64,000 nt of DNA from Hymenobacter sp. DG01 (GTDB lineage Bacteria > Bacteroidota > Bacteroidia > Cytophagales > Hymenobacteraceae). Positions 1 through 31,300 of this stretch are shown here, piece by piece. The stretch is from assembly GCF_006352025.1 (NCBI RefSeq), contig NZ_CP040936.1:1860001-1924000 (forward strand), in the 5' to 3' direction. A program made the position numbers and the translations under genes. Every line of letters begins with the position of its first letter. Position 1 is the first letter of the stretch. Under the pieces are notes generated by a model. It worked only from the letters and a program-made list of their open reading frames with translations. It was not told the DNA's origin and ran no database searches.

Positions 1-122
1 GGCGCGGCGTAGCGCCGGGACTTGGGGTAGAAGATGAAGCCCAGAAAGTCGGGGCGCAGGGCGGCTACCGCCCGCAGGTTGTCGGGACGGGCCATGCCGC
101 AGACTTTCAGGCGCACGCTCAT
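1..122 (-). CDS. trpF: Phosphoribosylanthranilate isomerase, N-terminal part (cut by window edge)
   Basis: Only the first 40 codons are in the window, reading MSVRLKVCGMARPDN and continuing to GFIFYPKSRRYA. The KVCGM start and the GFIFYPKSRRY segment are typical of TrpF, the (beta/alpha)8 isomerase that converts N-(5-phosphoribosyl)anthranilate to CdRP in tryptophan synthesis. The Cys in KVCGM is the usual catalytic general base. The ATG shares one base with the trpC stop codon (TAATG), so translation is probably coupled to trpC. The rest of the gene lies to the left of the window. Identification rests on this short segment plus its operon position. Confidence 0.88.
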   Translation of the reverse strand, partial: MSVRLKVCGMARPDNLRAVAALRPDFLGFIFYPKSRRYAA

Positions 123-937
123 TAGAGTACGGTTACGGCCTCGGTGGCACGGAGCTGCTGCACCAGGGCGGCACAGGCTTTTTCGGGGCGGGAGTGGCGC
201 ATGAACGTTTCACCGATCAGGAAGCCGCGGTAGCCTACCTGGCGCAAGGCCTCAATGTCGGCCGCTGAGGTCAGGCCGCTTTCCGTCACTTTCACAAACT
301 CGTCGGGGATACGCTGGGCCAGCTCGCCGGAGGTATCCAGGCTCACACTGAAGTCGTGCAAGTTGCGGTTGTTCACGCCTACCAGGCTCACCGCGTCGGG
401 GTGCAGAGTCTTGTCGAGCTCCTCGGCGTTATGGATTTCGAGCAGCACTTCCAGGCCCAGGCTTTTGGCCAGACGGCCCAGGCGCAGCACTTCCTCGCCC
501 GAAAGCACGGCCGCAATCAGCAGCACGGCGTCGGCCCCAATGCTCTTGGCTTCCAGAATCTGGTACTCATCCACCACAAAATCCTTGCGCAGAATCGGGC
601 AGAAATTGAAGCGCCGAGCCGTAATCAGGTCCTCGTTCCTGCCCCCGAAAAACTCCGTATCCGTCAGCACCGACAGGGCCGAGGCGCCGGCCTGCATGTA
701 GCCTAGTGTAGTGCGCTCTACCGGGGCGTGGGGGTTGATGAAGCCCTTGCTCGGTGACTTGCGCTTGAACTCAGCAATAATGCCGCTCAGATCCTCGCGC
801 AGCAGGTAGCGGCGCAAACTCAGGGGCTGGCTTTGCATGTACAGGCTTTTTTCCAGCAGCTTTACCGGCACCAGGCTTTGGCGGTCGGCTACTTCTTGGC
901 GCTTGTGGGCAATGATTTGGTCGAGAATCGTAGGCAT
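122..937 (-). CDS. trpC: Indole-3-glycerol phosphate synthase
   Basis: The 271-residue protein is the normal length for a monofunctional TrpC, a cytoplasmic TIM-barrel enzyme that closes the indole ring by decarboxylating CdRP. Visible active-site motifs are EFKRKSPS (E56, K58), LRKDF (K118 as the expected catalytic Lys), the GVNNRNL loop (about 187-193) and TESG (218-221). It sits in trpE-G-D-C-F order on the minus strand. The gap to trpD is 137 bases and the overlap with trpF is one base. There is no sign of fusion to TrpF, unlike the enterobacterial TrpCF protein. Confidence 0.96.
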   Translation of the reverse strand: MPTILDQIIAHKRQEVADRQSLVPVKLLEKSLYMQSQPLSLRRYLLREDLSGIIAEFKRKSPSKGFINPHAPVERTTLGYMQAGASALSVLTDTEFFGGRNEDLITARRFNFCPILRKDFVVDEYQILEAKSIGADAVLLIAAVLSGEEVLRLGRLAKSLGLEVLLEIHNAEELDKTLHPDAVSLVGVNNRNLHDFSVSLDTSGELAQRIPDEFVKVTESGLTSAADIEALRQVGYRGFLIGETFMRHSRPEKACAALVQQLRATEAVTVL

Positions 938-1074: not shown

Positions 1075-2088
1075 TTATAAGGTAGTAGCGTGGCTGTGCG
1101 TGACGGCCACCAGCTTGCGCAGGGCCTGCCGCGCCCGGCCGGAATCCAGGGATTCCTGGGCGGCGGCCAGGGCCTCGGCAAAGTTGAAGGTGGGCTCCAG
1201 GCAGCCAATGGCCAGGGCCGCGTTGGCCGTTACCACGTCACGCTGGGCGCGGGTGGCGCGGCCCTCCAGCACCTCCAGAAACAGCTTAGCTGATTCCTGC
1301 GGGGTGCGGCCGCCCGCCAACTCTTCGGGGCGGGTGGCAGTCAGGCCCAGGTCGGCGGCCGAGAGGAGCTGCTCGCCGGCGGGGGTGGCCAGCTTAGCGG
1401 CCCCGGTCAGCGAGAGTTCATCGTAGCCATCGAGGGCGTGTACTACGGCGTAGCGGGTTTCAGTTTGCTGCAGCAGGTAGTGGTAGAGGCGCAGCAGCTC
1501 CAGGCTAAACGTGCCGGCCACCTGGTGTTTCGGACGAGCGGGGTTAATCAGGGGGCCTAAGATGTTAAAGAAGGTGCGCACGCCCAGCTCCCGCCGCACG
1601 GGGCCGGCGTAGCGCATGGCCGGGTGGAACGAGGGCGCGTGCAGAAAGCAGATATTGGCCTGCTCTAGCTGCTGCTTCAACACGTCGTTTCCTACCCCAA
1701 AATCAACCCCCAACTGCGCCAGCACATCCGAGGAGCCACACACCGACGATACCCCGATGTTGCCGTGCTTGGTCACCCGGTAGCCCGCGCCGGCCACCAC
1801 AAAGCAGGCCAGCGTACTGATGTTGAGCGTGTCTTTGCCGTCGCCACCGGTGCCCACAATATCTACCGTGTCGTGGGTGCCTAGCTCCGGGTCGCGGCTC
1901 AAACTCAGCAGAGCCTCGCGGAAGCCGGCCAGCTCCGGCACGGCAATGGGCCGCATGCGGTACACCGTCATGAAAGCCGCCATTTCCGAAGCGTTGGCCT
2001 CGCCCTGCCCGATGCGCAGCATGGCCTCATGCGCCTCGGCGTGGGTAAGCTGCTGCTGGTCGAAGAGTTGATTAAGGATTTGTTTCAC
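1075..2088 (-). CDS. trpD: Anthranilate phosphoribosyltransferase
   Basis: The 337-residue protein carries the PRPP-binding glycine loop GTGGDGKDTLNIST (about 79-92) and KHGN (107-110), both diagnostic of TrpD. The enzyme transfers phosphoribose from PRPP to anthranilate, the second committed step of tryptophan synthesis. It is a stand-alone TrpD rather than a TrpGD fusion, because a separate trpG lies upstream. Its start is 96 bases downstream of the trpG stop on the minus strand, with no obvious terminator between them, so it is probably transcribed with the operon. Confidence 0.96.
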   Translation of the reverse strand: MKQILNQLFDQQQLTHAEAHEAMLRIGQGEANASEMAAFMTVYRMRPIAVPELAGFREALLSLSRDPELGTHDTVDIVGTGGDGKDTLNISTLACFVVAGAGYRVTKHGNIGVSSVCGSSDVLAQLGVDFGVGNDVLKQQLEQANICFLHAPSFHPAMRYAGPVRRELGVRTFFNILGPLINPARPKHQVAGTFSLELLRLYHYLLQQTETRYAVVHALDGYDELSLTGAAKLATPAGEQLLSAADLGLTATRPEELAGGRTPQESAKLFLEVLEGRATRAQRDVVTANAALAIGCLEPTFNFAEALAAAQESLDSGRARQALRKLVAVTHSHATTL

Positions 2089-2184: not shown

Positions 2185-2751
2185 TTAGGCCAACCAGTTA
2201 GCCAGCATCTGGTGGCCGTGCTCGGTCAGGATAGACTCGGGGTGGAACTGCACGCCGCGCACATCATACTCGCGGTGGCGGAAGGCCAGTACTTGACCGT
2301 TAGCATCCACGGCCGTTACTTCCAGCTCGGCCGGCACCGATTCGGTCCGGACGCTCCAGGAGTGGTAGCGCCCTACCTTGAACTGCTGGGGCAAACCGGT
2401 AAACAGGCGGTCCGGGGCCGTTACCTGGGCATCGGTAGCTAAGCCGTGCAGCACATCAGGCATGTTATACAGCTCACCACCGAAGCTTTCGGCCAGGCCC
2501 TGGTGGCCCAGACACACACCCAGCATGCGCTTGGTGGGTGCGTAGCGCCGAATGATTTCCGGCATCAGCCCGGCATCAGCTGGCACACCCGGACCAGGAG
2601 AAAGCAGCACGGCATCGTAGGCGGCCACGTCTTCCACCGTCAGCTTGTCGTTGCGAATTACCGTGACGTTGTCGGTATGCCCTAGCTCCCGCAGCACCTG
2701 CACAAGGTTGTAGGTAAAGGAGTCGTAGTTATCAATGACGAGGATTTTCAT
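2185..2751 (-). CDS. trpG: Anthranilate synthase component II (glutamine amidotransferase)
   Basis: The 188-residue class I glutamine amidotransferase has the nucleophile Cys80 in GVCLGHQ and the His170/Glu172 pair in FHPES, completing a Cys-His-Glu triad. The N-terminal ILVIDNYDSFTYNL is characteristic of TrpG/PabA. It should release ammonia from glutamine for TrpE. The gene follows trpE, but 157 bases containing a palindromic repeat separate the two. A dual role in folate synthesis (PabA) is possible if no pabA exists elsewhere, which cannot be judged here. Confidence 0.95.
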   Translation of the reverse strand: MKILVIDNYDSFTYNLVQVLRELGHTDNVTVIRNDKLTVEDVAAYDAVLLSPGPGVPADAGLMPEIIRRYAPTKRMLGVCLGHQGLAESFGGELYNMPDVLHGLATDAQVTAPDRLFTGLPQQFKVGRYHSWSVRTESVPAELEVTAVDANGQVLAFRHREYDVRGVQFHPESILTEHGHQMLANWLA

Positions 2752-2908: not shown

Positions 2909-4324
2909 CTACACCAACTCAGCTTCTTTCAGGGCCTTGCGCAGGGCGGCCAGCTTGTGATGCACTTCGTTGAGCTCGGAGTTGATATCGGAGGCGGCTA
3001 CTACCCCTGCGCCGGCCTGGAAGTAGAGCTGGCCGGCTGTGCTCAGGAAGGAGCGAATCATGATGGCGTGGTTGAAGTCGCCTTTGAAGCCGAGGTGGCC
3101 GATGGCCCCGCCGTAGTAGCCGCGGGCCGTGAGTTCCAGCCTGTCGATAATCTGCATGGCGCGGTGCTTGGGGGCGCCGGAAAGCGTACCAGCCGGGAAC
3201 GTATCGGCCACTACCTGCAGGGGGCTGGCTTCTGCCGCCAGGCGGGCCGTCACCTCACTGACCAAGTGAATGACGTGGGAGTAGTACTGGATTTCGCGGA
3301 ACACCTTCACTTTTACCTCGTCGCCGTGGCGGGCCAGGTCGTTGCGAGCCAGGTCCACGAGCATGACGTGCTCGGCGTTTTCCTTAGGGTCGTCGGCTAG
3401 TTTCTGGGCCAGGGCAGCATCTTCGGCATCGTGGCCGGTGCGGCGGAAGGTGCCGGCAATAGGGTACAGGCTGGCCTGGCGCCCTTTAATCAGCAGCTGG
3501 GTTTCGGGCGAGGAGCCGAAAATCTTGAATGAGCCGTAATCGAAATAAAACAGGTAGGGCGAGGGGTTGATGGAGCGCAGGGCCCGGTACACGTTGAACT
3601 CGTCGCCGCTGAAGCCCTGCTGAAACCGCCGCGACAGTACAATCTGGAACACGTTGCCCCGGCGGCAGTGCTGCTGCCCTTCGGCCAGCACCCGCAGGAA
3701 CTCCTCGTCGGTCTGGTTGGTCTGCTCCTCACCTACTGCCTTAAACTTGAAATCGGGCAGCGAAGGGTTCCGAATCAGGTTTACCAACCGCGTCAGTCCA
3801 TCTTCGTCCACCGTTTGCCCGGCCAGCGTGTGCTCGAACACATACAGTTCGTTGCGGAAGTGGTTGACGGCAATAACGTAGCGGTAGGTGCTGTAGAGAA
3901 TGTCCGGAATCTGACCGGCAGTGGGCTTTTCGGGATTCAGCTCCAGGTCCTCGAAGTACTGCACCGCTTCATAGCCCAAGTAGCCAAACAGCCCACCCGT
4001 GATGAAATCGTGGCCGGTGTCCTCGGTCTGGAAGCAGCCGGCAAACTCCTGCAGGCGGGCCAGGGCTTGCCGGGGTTCGGTTAGGGTTTCGGTTTCCGAG
4101 GTATCGTCGGGGTAGGTCAGGGTCAGCTCGCGGCCGCTCAGCTCAAATCGGGCCAGAGGGTCGAAGGCGAGGTAGCTGAAGGCATTTTGCTGGCCGTGGT
4201 AGTCGGAGCTTTCCAGCAGCAGGCAGTTGGCATACCGGTCGCGCAGACGGAGGTAAAGGCCCACGGGGGTTACCGTATCGGCCAGAACGCGCAGGAAGCG
4301 GGTATGCAGTTGAAAGGTTTTCAT
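2909..4324 (-). CDS. trpE: Anthranilate synthase component I
   Basis: The 471-residue chorismate-utilising enzyme makes anthranilate with TrpG. The LLESSD motif near the N-terminus matches the tryptophan feedback-binding motif of TrpE. The C-terminal half has the family signatures PAGTLSGAPK and GGAIGHLGF of the chorismate-binding fold. The ATG at 4324 (MKTFQLHTRF) is preferred over an in-frame upstream start at 4564. The upstream start would add 80 residues translated from the attenuator region, and those residues do not look like TrpE. The gene is first in the operon and lies 43 bases after the attenuator hairpin. Confidence 0.96.
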   Translation of the reverse strand: MKTFQLHTRFLRVLADTVTPVGLYLRLRDRYANCLLLESSDYHGQQNAFSYLAFDPLARFELSGRELTLTYPDDTSETETLTEPRQALARLQEFAGCFQTEDTGHDFITGGLFGYLGYEAVQYFEDLELNPEKPTAGQIPDILYSTYRYVIAVNHFRNELYVFEHTLAGQTVDEDGLTRLVNLIRNPSLPDFKFKAVGEEQTNQTDEEFLRVLAEGQQHCRRGNVFQIVLSRRFQQGFSGDEFNVYRALRSINPSPYLFYFDYGSFKIFGSSPETQLLIKGRQASLYPIAGTFRRTGHDAEDAALAQKLADDPKENAEHVMLVDLARNDLARHGDEVKVKVFREIQYYSHVIHLVSEVTARLAAEASPLQVVADTFPAGTLSGAPKHRAMQIIDRLELTARGYYGGAIGHLGFKGDFNHAIMIRSFLSTAGQLYFQAGAGVVAASDINSELNEVHHKLAALRKALKEAELV

Positions 4325-4366
4325 CGGCTGGTTGTGGTGATTGGAGGGTGACCAGCGCCGGGAAAT

Positions 4367-4396
4367 AAAAAAGCCCGGCGGGGCGGCCGGGCTTTT
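4367..4396 (-). terminator. trp attenuator terminator hairpin
   Basis: Read on the minus strand, a GC-rich stem (AAAAGCCCGGC pairing with GCCGGGCTTTT) is followed directly by a run of six T. It lies between the leader peptide stop (4429) and the trpE start (4324). An intrinsic terminator in front of the first structural gene, after a Trp-rich leader peptide, is the classical arrangement for transcription attenuation. Confidence 0.9.
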
Positions 4397-4428
4397 GAGC
4401 TTTTGCGAAGGTAGTGGTTCAGTTGACC

Positions 4429-4494
4429 TTAGCGCACGCACATGCTGTCCCGTCCGGAATTTCCGTAGGGCCACCACCATGCCTGCTGCGTCAT
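4429..4494 (-). CDS. trpL: trp leader peptide (attenuation)
   Basis: This 21-codon reading frame begins MTQQAWWWPYG and ends SMCVR before TAA. It contains three consecutive Trp codons (TGG at 4479-4471). An in-frame ATG at 4506 would give a 25-residue version. The frame lies between a full promoter (4535-4564) and an intrinsic terminator (4367-4396), and is followed by trpE. The Trp codon run (GGTGGTGG) can pair with CCACTACC at 4417-4410 with one G-U pair, as expected for a 1:2 pause stem. Ribosome stalling at scarce Trp-tRNA would then let trpE transcription continue. The mechanism is inferred from layout, and the competing antiterminator stem was not computed. Confidence 0.88.
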   Translation of the reverse strand: MTQQAWWWPYGNSGRDSMCVR

Positions 4495-4534
4495 TGAGAA
4501 GGTCATTGCCAATAGTTTTGGGCGTTGAACGAGG

Positions 4535-4564
4535 CAAAGGTAAGGGGAGTTGAATTTTTCGCAA
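4535..4564 (-). promoter_or_regulatory. trp operon promoter, Bacteroidota type
   Basis: On the minus strand, TTG (4564-4562) is separated by exactly 19 bases from TACCTTTG (4542-4535). This matches the Bacteroidota sigma factor consensus TTTG-N19-TAnnTTTG. The predicted transcript start near 4528 lies 20 to 35 bases before the leader peptide ATG. It is the best promoter match in the window. Confidence 0.8.
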
Positions 4565-4608
4565 GCACAGGCCCGAATTTTTTACCGGCCGGCAACTGCT
4601 CCCCGAAA

Positions 4609-30813: not shown

Positions 30814-31300
30814 CAGTGATGGGTCGCCCCACCGCGGCGCCAAACGCAAGAATGGCGACGAGGAAAGTCCGGGCAACACAGAGCACCCTGCTTCCTAACG
30901 GGAAGGACTGGGCGGCGTAAAGCTTCCCAGGACAGCCAGTGCCACAGAAAATTACCGCCGGTTTTGAAGGGTAAGCGGGTAGGAGGGTGTGAGGGCAAGA
31001 GGTTTTTACCTCCTGAACTCCTACCCTCACACCTTCCTACCCAACCAAACCGGTAAGGGTGAAAAGGTGCGGTAAGAGCGCACCAGCGGCTGGGTGACCA
31101 TGCCGGCTGGGTAAACCTCAGGGGTTGAAAGACCAAATAAGCTGGCACGCGGGCCCTTTCGGGGGCCGGCACCGGGCGGCTCGTCCGGCGCCAGCGGGTA
31201 GGTTGATGGAGCCTTTCCGCGAGGACTGGCCTAGATAAATGGTGGGGCCGCTTCTGCTTGCAGGGGCGGACAAAACCCGGCTTACAGACTCATCACCGCC
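30814..31300 (+). ncRNA. rnpB: RNase P RNA (bacterial type A)
   Basis: The 5' part contains GTGATGGG..., the conserved GACGAGGAAAGTCCGG (P4 5' strand) and CAACACAGAGCA. The 3' part contains GGTTGAAAGACCAAATAAGC, GGCGGACAAAACCCGGCTTACAG and ends CATCACC. GTGATG at 30816 pairs with CATCAC at 31291-31296 to form P1. The RNA removes 5' leaders from tRNA precursors. At about 485 bases it is longer than most type A RNAs because of a palindromic insertion in the P12 region (30977-31042). A terminator follows at once. Confidence 0.95.
30977..31042 (+). repeat. Palindromic insertion in the P12 region of rnpB
   Basis: GGGTAGGAGGGTGTGAGGG (30977-30995) and CCCTCACACCTTCCTACCC (31024-31042) are inverted 19-base arms with one mismatch, closed by a smaller GAGG/CCTC helix. 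The position is between the first third of the RNA and the conserved 3' domain, where helix P12 varies in length among bacteria. The words GGAGGGTGTG and GTGAGGG also occur in the palindrome at 42301-42441. Confidence 0.8.

Follow-up and report, generated by a model that had tools for sequence, protein, structure and literature searches.

A probable ribosome-mediated trp attenuator with three adjacent Trp codons upstream of trpEGDC in Hymenobacter, and Trp-run leaders across the Bacteroidota

The window, a stretch of 64,000 nucleotides from a Hymenobacter genome, carries trpE, trpG, trpD and trpC in this order on the minus strand downstream of a short open reading frame with three adjacent Trp codons. 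This raises the question of whether the expression of the operon is set by a ribosome that reads the leader. The first-pass annotation had proposed a complete trp attenuation region, and the conservation of the leader, the terminators and the co-evolving alternative pairings described below support that proposal. We consider it very probable that trpEGDC is controlled at this leader by transcription attenuation of the classical, ribosome-mediated kind. The features of the locus are collected in Table 1.

Table 1. Positions of the leader features, promoter elements and trp genes in the window, and of the tandem Phe/Tyr leaders elsewhere in the same genome
Feature	Position	Strand	Basis and remarks
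TTG promoter element	4562..4564	minus	read directly
TACCTTTG promoter element	4535..4542	minus	19 bases downstream of TTG; read directly
Leader ORF, MTFSMTQQAWWWPYGNSGRDSMCVR plus stop	4429..4506	minus	ATG 4506 (25 codons), TAA 4431-4429; Trp-run leaders in 61/61 genus genomes
Long-range helix, 5' strand UGACCUU, first leader codons	4499..4505	minus	partner-swap
TGG TGG TGG, three Trp codons (proposed sensor)	4471..4479	minus	kept in 32/32 gapless clade A leaders
Segment 1, CCC UA CGGA, adjoins the Trp codons 3'	4462..4470	minus	predicted fold; 1:2 partner-swap
Segment 2, UCCGGACGGG; CGGACGGG (4456-4449) doubles as antiterminator 5' strand	4449..4458	minus	predicted fold; invariant TCC GGA CGG
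Long-range helix, 3' strand AAGGUCA, begins in the stop codon	4424..4430	minus	partner-swap
Segment 3, antiterminator 3' strand CCCGgCCG, inside terminator arm and loop	4384..4391	minus	predicted fold
Intrinsic terminator	4367..4396	minus	stem 4396-4386 / 4379-4369, loop 4385-4380, U tail to 4367; -19.1 kcal/mol
trpE, first gene of the operon	2909..4324	minus	TIGR00564, 2.9e-121, 405.6 bits, under the curated cut-off of 517.7
trpG	2185..2751	minus	TIGR00566, above cut-off
trpD	1075..2088	minus	TIGR01245, above cut-off
trpC	122..937	minus	NF001377, above cut-off
Tandem Phe/Tyr leaders MRQHTGRFFFSYYFYYATT and MLTPAFFYYGYYRFFFTKKPGPVCRS (L214)	G000:C1 ~3701880-3702125	minus	own terminator each

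The full promoter of the first-pass annotation, TTG-N19-TACCTTTG, was read in the window as described, and we take its two parts to be the -33 and -7 elements of a Bacteroidota-type promoter. Of the 61 genus genomes, 48 carry the motif TAnnTTTG at most 110 bases from the leader ATG (3.7% in base-shuffled sequence), and a TTG was placed 17-22 bases 5' of it in 35 of the 61. At the other end of the region, the proteins of relatives align from the trpE Met at 4324.

The leader ORF has two in-frame ATG codons, the second of which, at 4494, would give a peptide of 21 codons instead of 25. To compare the codons we used the gapless leaders of clade A, the clade to which the window belongs, which were 32 of 33 after L032, with a shorter ORF, was omitted. 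The first ATG was present in 32/32 of these leaders and the second in only 14/32, and the 21-codon start was therefore rejected and the 25-codon start is the better candidate of the two. The leader of 21 or 25 codons with three adjacent Trp codons that had been annotated is thus present, with the longer form favoured. By-eye inspection of the sequence before the leader ATG of the window revealed no Shine-Dalgarno-like sequence.

In the genus, we scored short ORFs running from an ATG to a stop with at least two adjacent TGG codons and lying at most 300 bases upstream of trpE, in 61 genomes, the window's own included, made up of 33 of clade A, 15 of clade B and 13 of clade C. All 61 genomes had such a leader and 49 had at least three adjacent TGG codons. 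On the opposite strand of the same genomes there were two leaders with at least two TGG codons and none with at least three, and in 20 dinucleotide shuffles the maximum was one and none, respectively. Since a Trp-run leader was found in 61/61 genomes against at most one in the shuffles, its presence is not due to chance. TGG was by far the commonest codon run, followed by ATG runs in two genomes. The alignment of trpE leaders from relatives, suggested in the first-pass annotation, thus found the Trp run conserved, and neither the short frame nor the Trp codons were missing from any of the 61 genus genomes.

Outside the genus set, two or more adjacent Trp codons were found in 99 of 128 loci and three in 80 of 128, with maxima of two and zero in the shuffles. 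Six loci of this group, which also enters the terminator and folding counts below, belong to the genus of the window, and three of these (L064, L071 and L073) come from genomes already among the 61; L138 is from the same family. In a sample of the phylum, searched over a wider span, 27 of 38 families had WWW leaders and 33 of 38 had runs of WW or longer; counted by genus, 53 of 88 had WWW. Four loci of this sample (L185, L188, L190 and L193) did not align and were entered by coordinate. A part of the WW matches beyond the genus may have arisen by chance. There was no WW leader in 28 of 193 sampled upstream regions, nine of them in family f4, four in f20 and three each in f14 and f22. A set of named records that overlaps the phylum sample, and from which L304 and L306 were excluded as contig ends, gave 58 WWW leaders, 13 WW leaders and 7 without either among 78 usable loci. 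Named genera with a Trp-run leader include Hymenobacter, Flavobacterium, Algoriphagus, Dyadobacter, Aquimarina, Sphingobacterium and Chitinophaga, and the records without one include three of Pedobacter and one of Pontibacter.

The codons around the Trp run carry two kinds of constraint. The reading frame was unbroken in all 32 gapless clade A leaders; codon 8 was Gln in 30/32, written with two synonymous codons, and codon 9 was Ala in 29/32, written with four, and from the synonymous codon use at Ala codon 9 the leader ORF looks translated. By comparison, TCC GGA CGG and TGC GTG were invariant at every base in the 32 leaders, third positions included, which points to RNA pairing and not to the peptide alone. 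The end of the peptide, SGRD..LCVR, is almost constant in clade A. Such a conserved SGRDxLCVR end would be explained if the peptide functioned in trans, as PMC7298713 reports for peTrpL of Sinorhizobium, and this function could coexist with attenuation. We regard it as very unlikely here, because the third positions of TCC GGA CGG and TGC GTG are fixed as well, as RNA pairing demands, and because the peptide ends differently in clade B, with forms such as GPACLCA or GPDSQCAR, in clade C and in the other sampled families.

The terminator annotated upstream of trpE was also found, but its stem ends 44 bases from the trpE ATG at 4324, not 43 as first counted. A hairpin with a U tail followed the leader in 157 of 161 leader-bearing loci, three of which (L076, L151 and L165) had hairpins weaker than -8 kcal/mol and were removed before the nascent-RNA model. 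The automated search returned no terminator for L080, L116, L150 and L174, and at L023 it picked the wrong hairpin. An extra hairpin between the leader stop and the terminator, ranking fifth or better of 100, was present in 13/15 leaders of clade B, 5/33 of clade A, 0/13 of clade C and 8/95 of the others. In several other families (L069, L084, L114 and L133 among others) the sequence UUCAC was seen in or near the terminator loop; in L069 and L084, inspection by eye shows complementarity between this sequence and the 3' portion of the leader ORF, and the antiterminator would there overlap the leader end.

An attenuator needs a pairing that competes with the terminator, and the first-pass annotation had noted that the Trp-codon region is complementary to a downstream segment. 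The duplex of the Trp codons with CCACUACC is indeed present in the window (-13.8 kcal/mol), but it is not conserved across the 48 genomes of clades A and B. It was strong only in the window, L002 and L003 (L001-L003), with values from -10.5 to -4.3 in the other 45 genomes, a mean of -6.88 versus -7.26 kcal/mol in shuffled sequence, and 12.5% of the genomes beating 90% of their own shuffles. With a strong duplex in three close genomes only and a mean no better than shuffles, this stem was rejected as the working switch. For the segment that follows the Trp codons, the better-supported partner is CGGACGGG, which lies inside the leader ORF. In the predicted fold of the window, CCC (4470-4468) and CGGA (4465-4462) pair with UCCG (4458-4455) and GGG (4451-4449) to form 1:2, and with a ribosome on the Trp codons CGGACGGG pairs with CCCGGCCG (4391-4384) to form 2:3 with one A.G mismatch. 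When a ribosome was placed at the stop codon and folding was limited to the RNA ahead of it, the terminator stayed. The stability of the fold of the window transcript as a whole was not unusual (z -1.55).

We then asked how specific these pairings are with a partner-swap test, in which the segments of each genome were paired with their own partners versus those of other genomes. For the phylum, one WWW locus per genus with a terminator at least as strong as -8 kcal/mol was taken, giving 47 genera, and all RNA from the stalled ribosome to the terminator stood for segment 2. The leader RNA paired with its own terminator arm and loop at -13.28 versus -9.44 kcal/mol for swapped partners (z -9.9, 0/5000 permutations), and the own arm was in the best tenth of partners in 22 of the 47 genera. 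The 1:2 swap gave z -7.0 (0/5000 permutations), with the own partner in the best tenth in 17/47; the segments of the 1:2 test overlap by three bases here and by six in the genus test. The 3:4 swap gave z -19.7, a value that follows from the selection for a hairpin. Within the genus, the 1:2 swap was significant for clades A and B together (z -4.4, 0/2000) and showed no signal inside single clades (z 0.1 in A and -1.0 in B), and the 2:3 swap showed none either (z +0.8 to +1.0), with segments that scarcely vary. The 1:2, 2:3 and 3:4 stems, whose computation the first-pass annotation had called for, are thus all predicted in the window, and the mutually exclusive pairings 1:2 and 2:3 appear to have co-evolved over 47 genera.

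A further helix was predicted between the first leader codons and the region of the stop codon. In clade A, this long-range helix had -8.59 kcal/mol with its own partner versus -6.50 kcal/mol with swapped partners (z -6.0, 0/2000 permutations), and the swap was not significant inside clade B (z -1.1) or clade C (z -0.7). The free-state fold of E. coli trpL likewise has a long-range helix from the 5' part of the leader to a distal segment, and in E. coli such pairing limits re-initiation at trpL. In Hymenobacter, the helix may limit re-initiation or lock the untranslated state.

To relate the pairings to the position of the ribosome, a nascent-RNA folding model was used in which the readout was the cost of opening the terminator arm with the ribosome stalled on the last Trp codon, with free RNA and with the ribosome at the stop codon. 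In that order, the costs were 8.2, 2.9 and 2.2 kcal/mol for the window (5.9 if stalled on the first Trp codon), 8.6, 4.1 and 2.2 kcal/mol as medians of the 61 genus genomes, 8.6, 2.8 and 1.8 kcal/mol for the other loci, and 9.3, 0.2 and 0.0 kcal/mol for the E. coli control. The stalled state exceeded the stop state by at least 2 in 58/61 genus genomes and 84/93 other loci, and the free state by at least 1 kcal/mol in 44/61 and 87/93, with 17 of the 61 genus genomes falling short. The 'at stop' state omits all RNA upstream of the ribosome and so removes segment 2 by construction; because segment 2, about 18 bases before the stop codon, sits just behind the ribosome, this state overstates the contrast. 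Measured against shuffles, the stalled cost was better (at most 3/60 as good) in 24/61 genus genomes and 53/93 other loci, or 2/33 in clade A, 12/15 in clade B and 10/13 in clade C.

In a variant of the model, the RNA behind the ribosome was free to pair; it was run for 11/33 leaders of clade A, 8/15 of clade B, 5/13 of clade C and 18 other loci. For the window, a ribosome on the Trp codons gave a cost of 5.7-6.9, which fell to 2.5-3.0 a few codons further on, rose as high as 10.3 around codons 19-20 and was 4.9 once the stop codon was reached. The maximum fell at the Trp codons or at most two codons past them in 13/18 other loci, 5/8 leaders of clade B, 2/5 of clade C and 1/11 of clade A, where the profiles peak at the first leader codons. 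The E. coli control was flat in the variant, and for the window the contrast is weak. The models favour a dependence on ribosome position for most other loci and clade B, and weakly so for the window and clade A.

These numbers bear on the possibility that the terminator is a constitutive insulator, read through at a fixed rate, and that the short ORF plays no part in regulation. It would fit that in 31/33 clade A leaders the stalled pairing was no better than in shuffles and that the dependence on ribosome position is small. However, the Trp run, its position ahead of the terminator and the co-evolving pairings all persist across 47 genera, and we consider a mere insulator improbable. Equilibrium folding is weak evidence for the window itself, and the case for attenuation stands on conservation and on the other clades.

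Comparison and computation established the ORF, the Trp codons, the terminator, their conservation and the co-evolving pairings. What we infer is the translation of the leader, the stalling, the response to tryptophan and the sequence of steps at the stop codon, which would proceed as follows. The lead ribosome would translate the 25-codon leader and, when Trp-tRNA is scarce, stall on the three Trp codons and cover segment 1. Segment 2, through CGGACGGG, would then pair with CCCGGCCG in the terminator 5' arm, and transcription would enter trpE. When Trp-tRNA is ample, the ribosome would cross segment 2 and arrive at the stop codon; segment 2, now behind it, could refold on segment 1 and the terminator would form. 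If the leader is not translated, 1:2 and the long-range helix would hold segment 2, and the terminator would again form.

The leader could instead control translation, for instance through re-initiation or by making the trpE start accessible. Leader-dependent translational control occurs in other systems. Passages of PMC4833913 discuss re-initiation after leaders at short distances, Bacteroidetes included. Here, 104 bases separate the leader stop from the trpE ATG, with an intrinsic terminator in between, and the co-evolving pairing that was tested includes the terminator arm; control at the level of translation accordingly has a very small probability in our estimate.

The operon might also be under another tryptophan device, such as a T-box, a TRAP site or a TrpR operator, and we searched for the corresponding RNAs and proteins. 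A scan of the window at the Rfam gathering level found no T-box and no match to what we take to be the Trp leader family of Rfam. The single match was RNase P RNA, bacterial class A, at 30816-31300 on the plus strand. A lax scan of 4300-4600 again found no T-box or Trp leader, with weak Leu_leader and Thr_leader hits far under the cut-offs. TrpBP (PF02081) and Trp_repressor (PF01371) were each found in 0/16 genus genomes searched, and the positive controls matched (the Trp repressor family in E. coli and B. subtilis, TRAP in B. subtilis). With no such match in the RNA and neither protein family found in the 16 genomes, another device is extremely unlikely, and ribosome-mediated attenuation is the reading that we retain.

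Compared to E. coli trpL (L194, NC_000913), the Hymenobacter leader shares the short ORF with adjacent Trp codons, the terminator before trpE and the alternative pairings, and the values in the first nascent-RNA model were similar. In contrast, it has 25 instead of 14 codons, its segment 2 is contained in the ORF, there is no visible Shine-Dalgarno-like sequence at the leader ATG and TrpR was not found in the 16 genus genomes. It also gave no Rfam match to the known proteobacterial leaders.

A 2010 paper by Lopatovskaya, Seliverstov and Lyubetsky, cited in PMC4833913, may contain earlier predictions of some attenuators in Bacteroidetes. Among the open-access matches listed, no trp attenuation in Bacteroidota was recognised by title or start of the abstract, with subscription journals mostly outside this scope. 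Flavobacterium psychrophilum presumably belongs to the same phylum as the window's genome. Parts of PMC9723704 report strong clues in this species for leader-peptide attenuation before amino-acid operons and name conserved structured 5' elements before pheA and hisG; in its main text, 'trp' has no match. The view of the first-pass annotation that trp attenuation is not experimentally described in such bacteria agrees with the open-access matches listed, but has to allow for these hints from Flavobacterium (PMC9723704, in part). In Bacteroides thetaiotaomicron, short ORFs in long 5' untranslated regions resemble attenuation leaders, according to passages of PMC7366714. Outside the Gammaproteobacteria, Trp-dependent leader regulation is described for trp leaders of Actinobacteria (Corynebacterium and Streptomyces), another phylum, with experimental support cited in parts of PMC4833913. 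The authors of PMC2965389 (2010) state in a passage that before their own Firmicutes case they knew of no leader-peptide system beyond Proteobacteria and Actinobacteria, and the main text of that paper has no match for Bacteroid-, Flavobacter- or Cytophag-. The trp attenuator is well supported by comparison and, as far as we have seen, new as a described member in its phylum, and its mechanism is ordinary. What is notable is its wide spread and the lack of a visible Shine-Dalgarno sequence at its start site.

The ribosomes of Bacteroidota, according to a 2021 paper, reportedly sequester their anti-Shine-Dalgarno sequence. Attenuation of this kind needs a close coupling of transcription and translation that is not universal; in B. 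subtilis the two seem to be uncoupled, as parts of PMC10931766 indicate. Co-evolving and widespread trp leaders would make both coupling and Shine-Dalgarno-less initiation in Bacteroidota directly testable, and an attenuator would give the trp genes a regulator in a genus in which neither TrpR nor TRAP was found in 16 genomes. Taking the results together, we lean towards a broader reading in which ribosome-mediated attenuation was the original tryptophan control of Bacteroidota and is still the principal one, acting at starts without Shine-Dalgarno sequences, so that lead ribosomes must trail RNA polymerase closely, and in which Hymenobacter adds a co-varying start-stop helix and two complete serial Phe/Tyr attenuators before pheA.

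Leaders of the same kind were found before operons for other amino acids. A His-run leader ORF (e.g. HHHHHGHHSSF) preceded hisG in 16/16 genus genomes (L195-L210, raw count). A pheA match was obtained in 14 of 16 genus genomes searched, and all 14 had Phe/Tyr-rich leaders before it; the opposite strand had none, and base shuffles gave 0.4%. Two such leaders stood in series in 11 of the 14, each with its own terminator in 10 of these 11; next to the pair of the window's genome, the tandem arrangement was found at L211-L213, L215-L218, L220, L222 and L224. In an order-wide search of 88 genomes, of which 67 had a match, the 29 new loci gave four Phe/Tyr leader matches, one of them convincing and from the same genus, and tandem leaders were not convincingly present in the 28 extra-genus loci examined. 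The tandem Phe/Tyr leaders are possibly more novel than the trp leader. In the window's genome, the pheA operon encodes a prephenate dehydratase over the Pfam cut-off and under the NCBIfam cut-offs, a prephenate dehydrogenase over the cut-off and a DAHP synthase with a chorismate-mutase end under the cut-offs, and a further ORF looks like a putative aminotransferase; this gene content fits a leader that counts both Phe and Tyr. Finally, of 10 genus genomes with an ilvD match, three (L230, L233 and L234, raw count) had a VVII-type leader before the gene.
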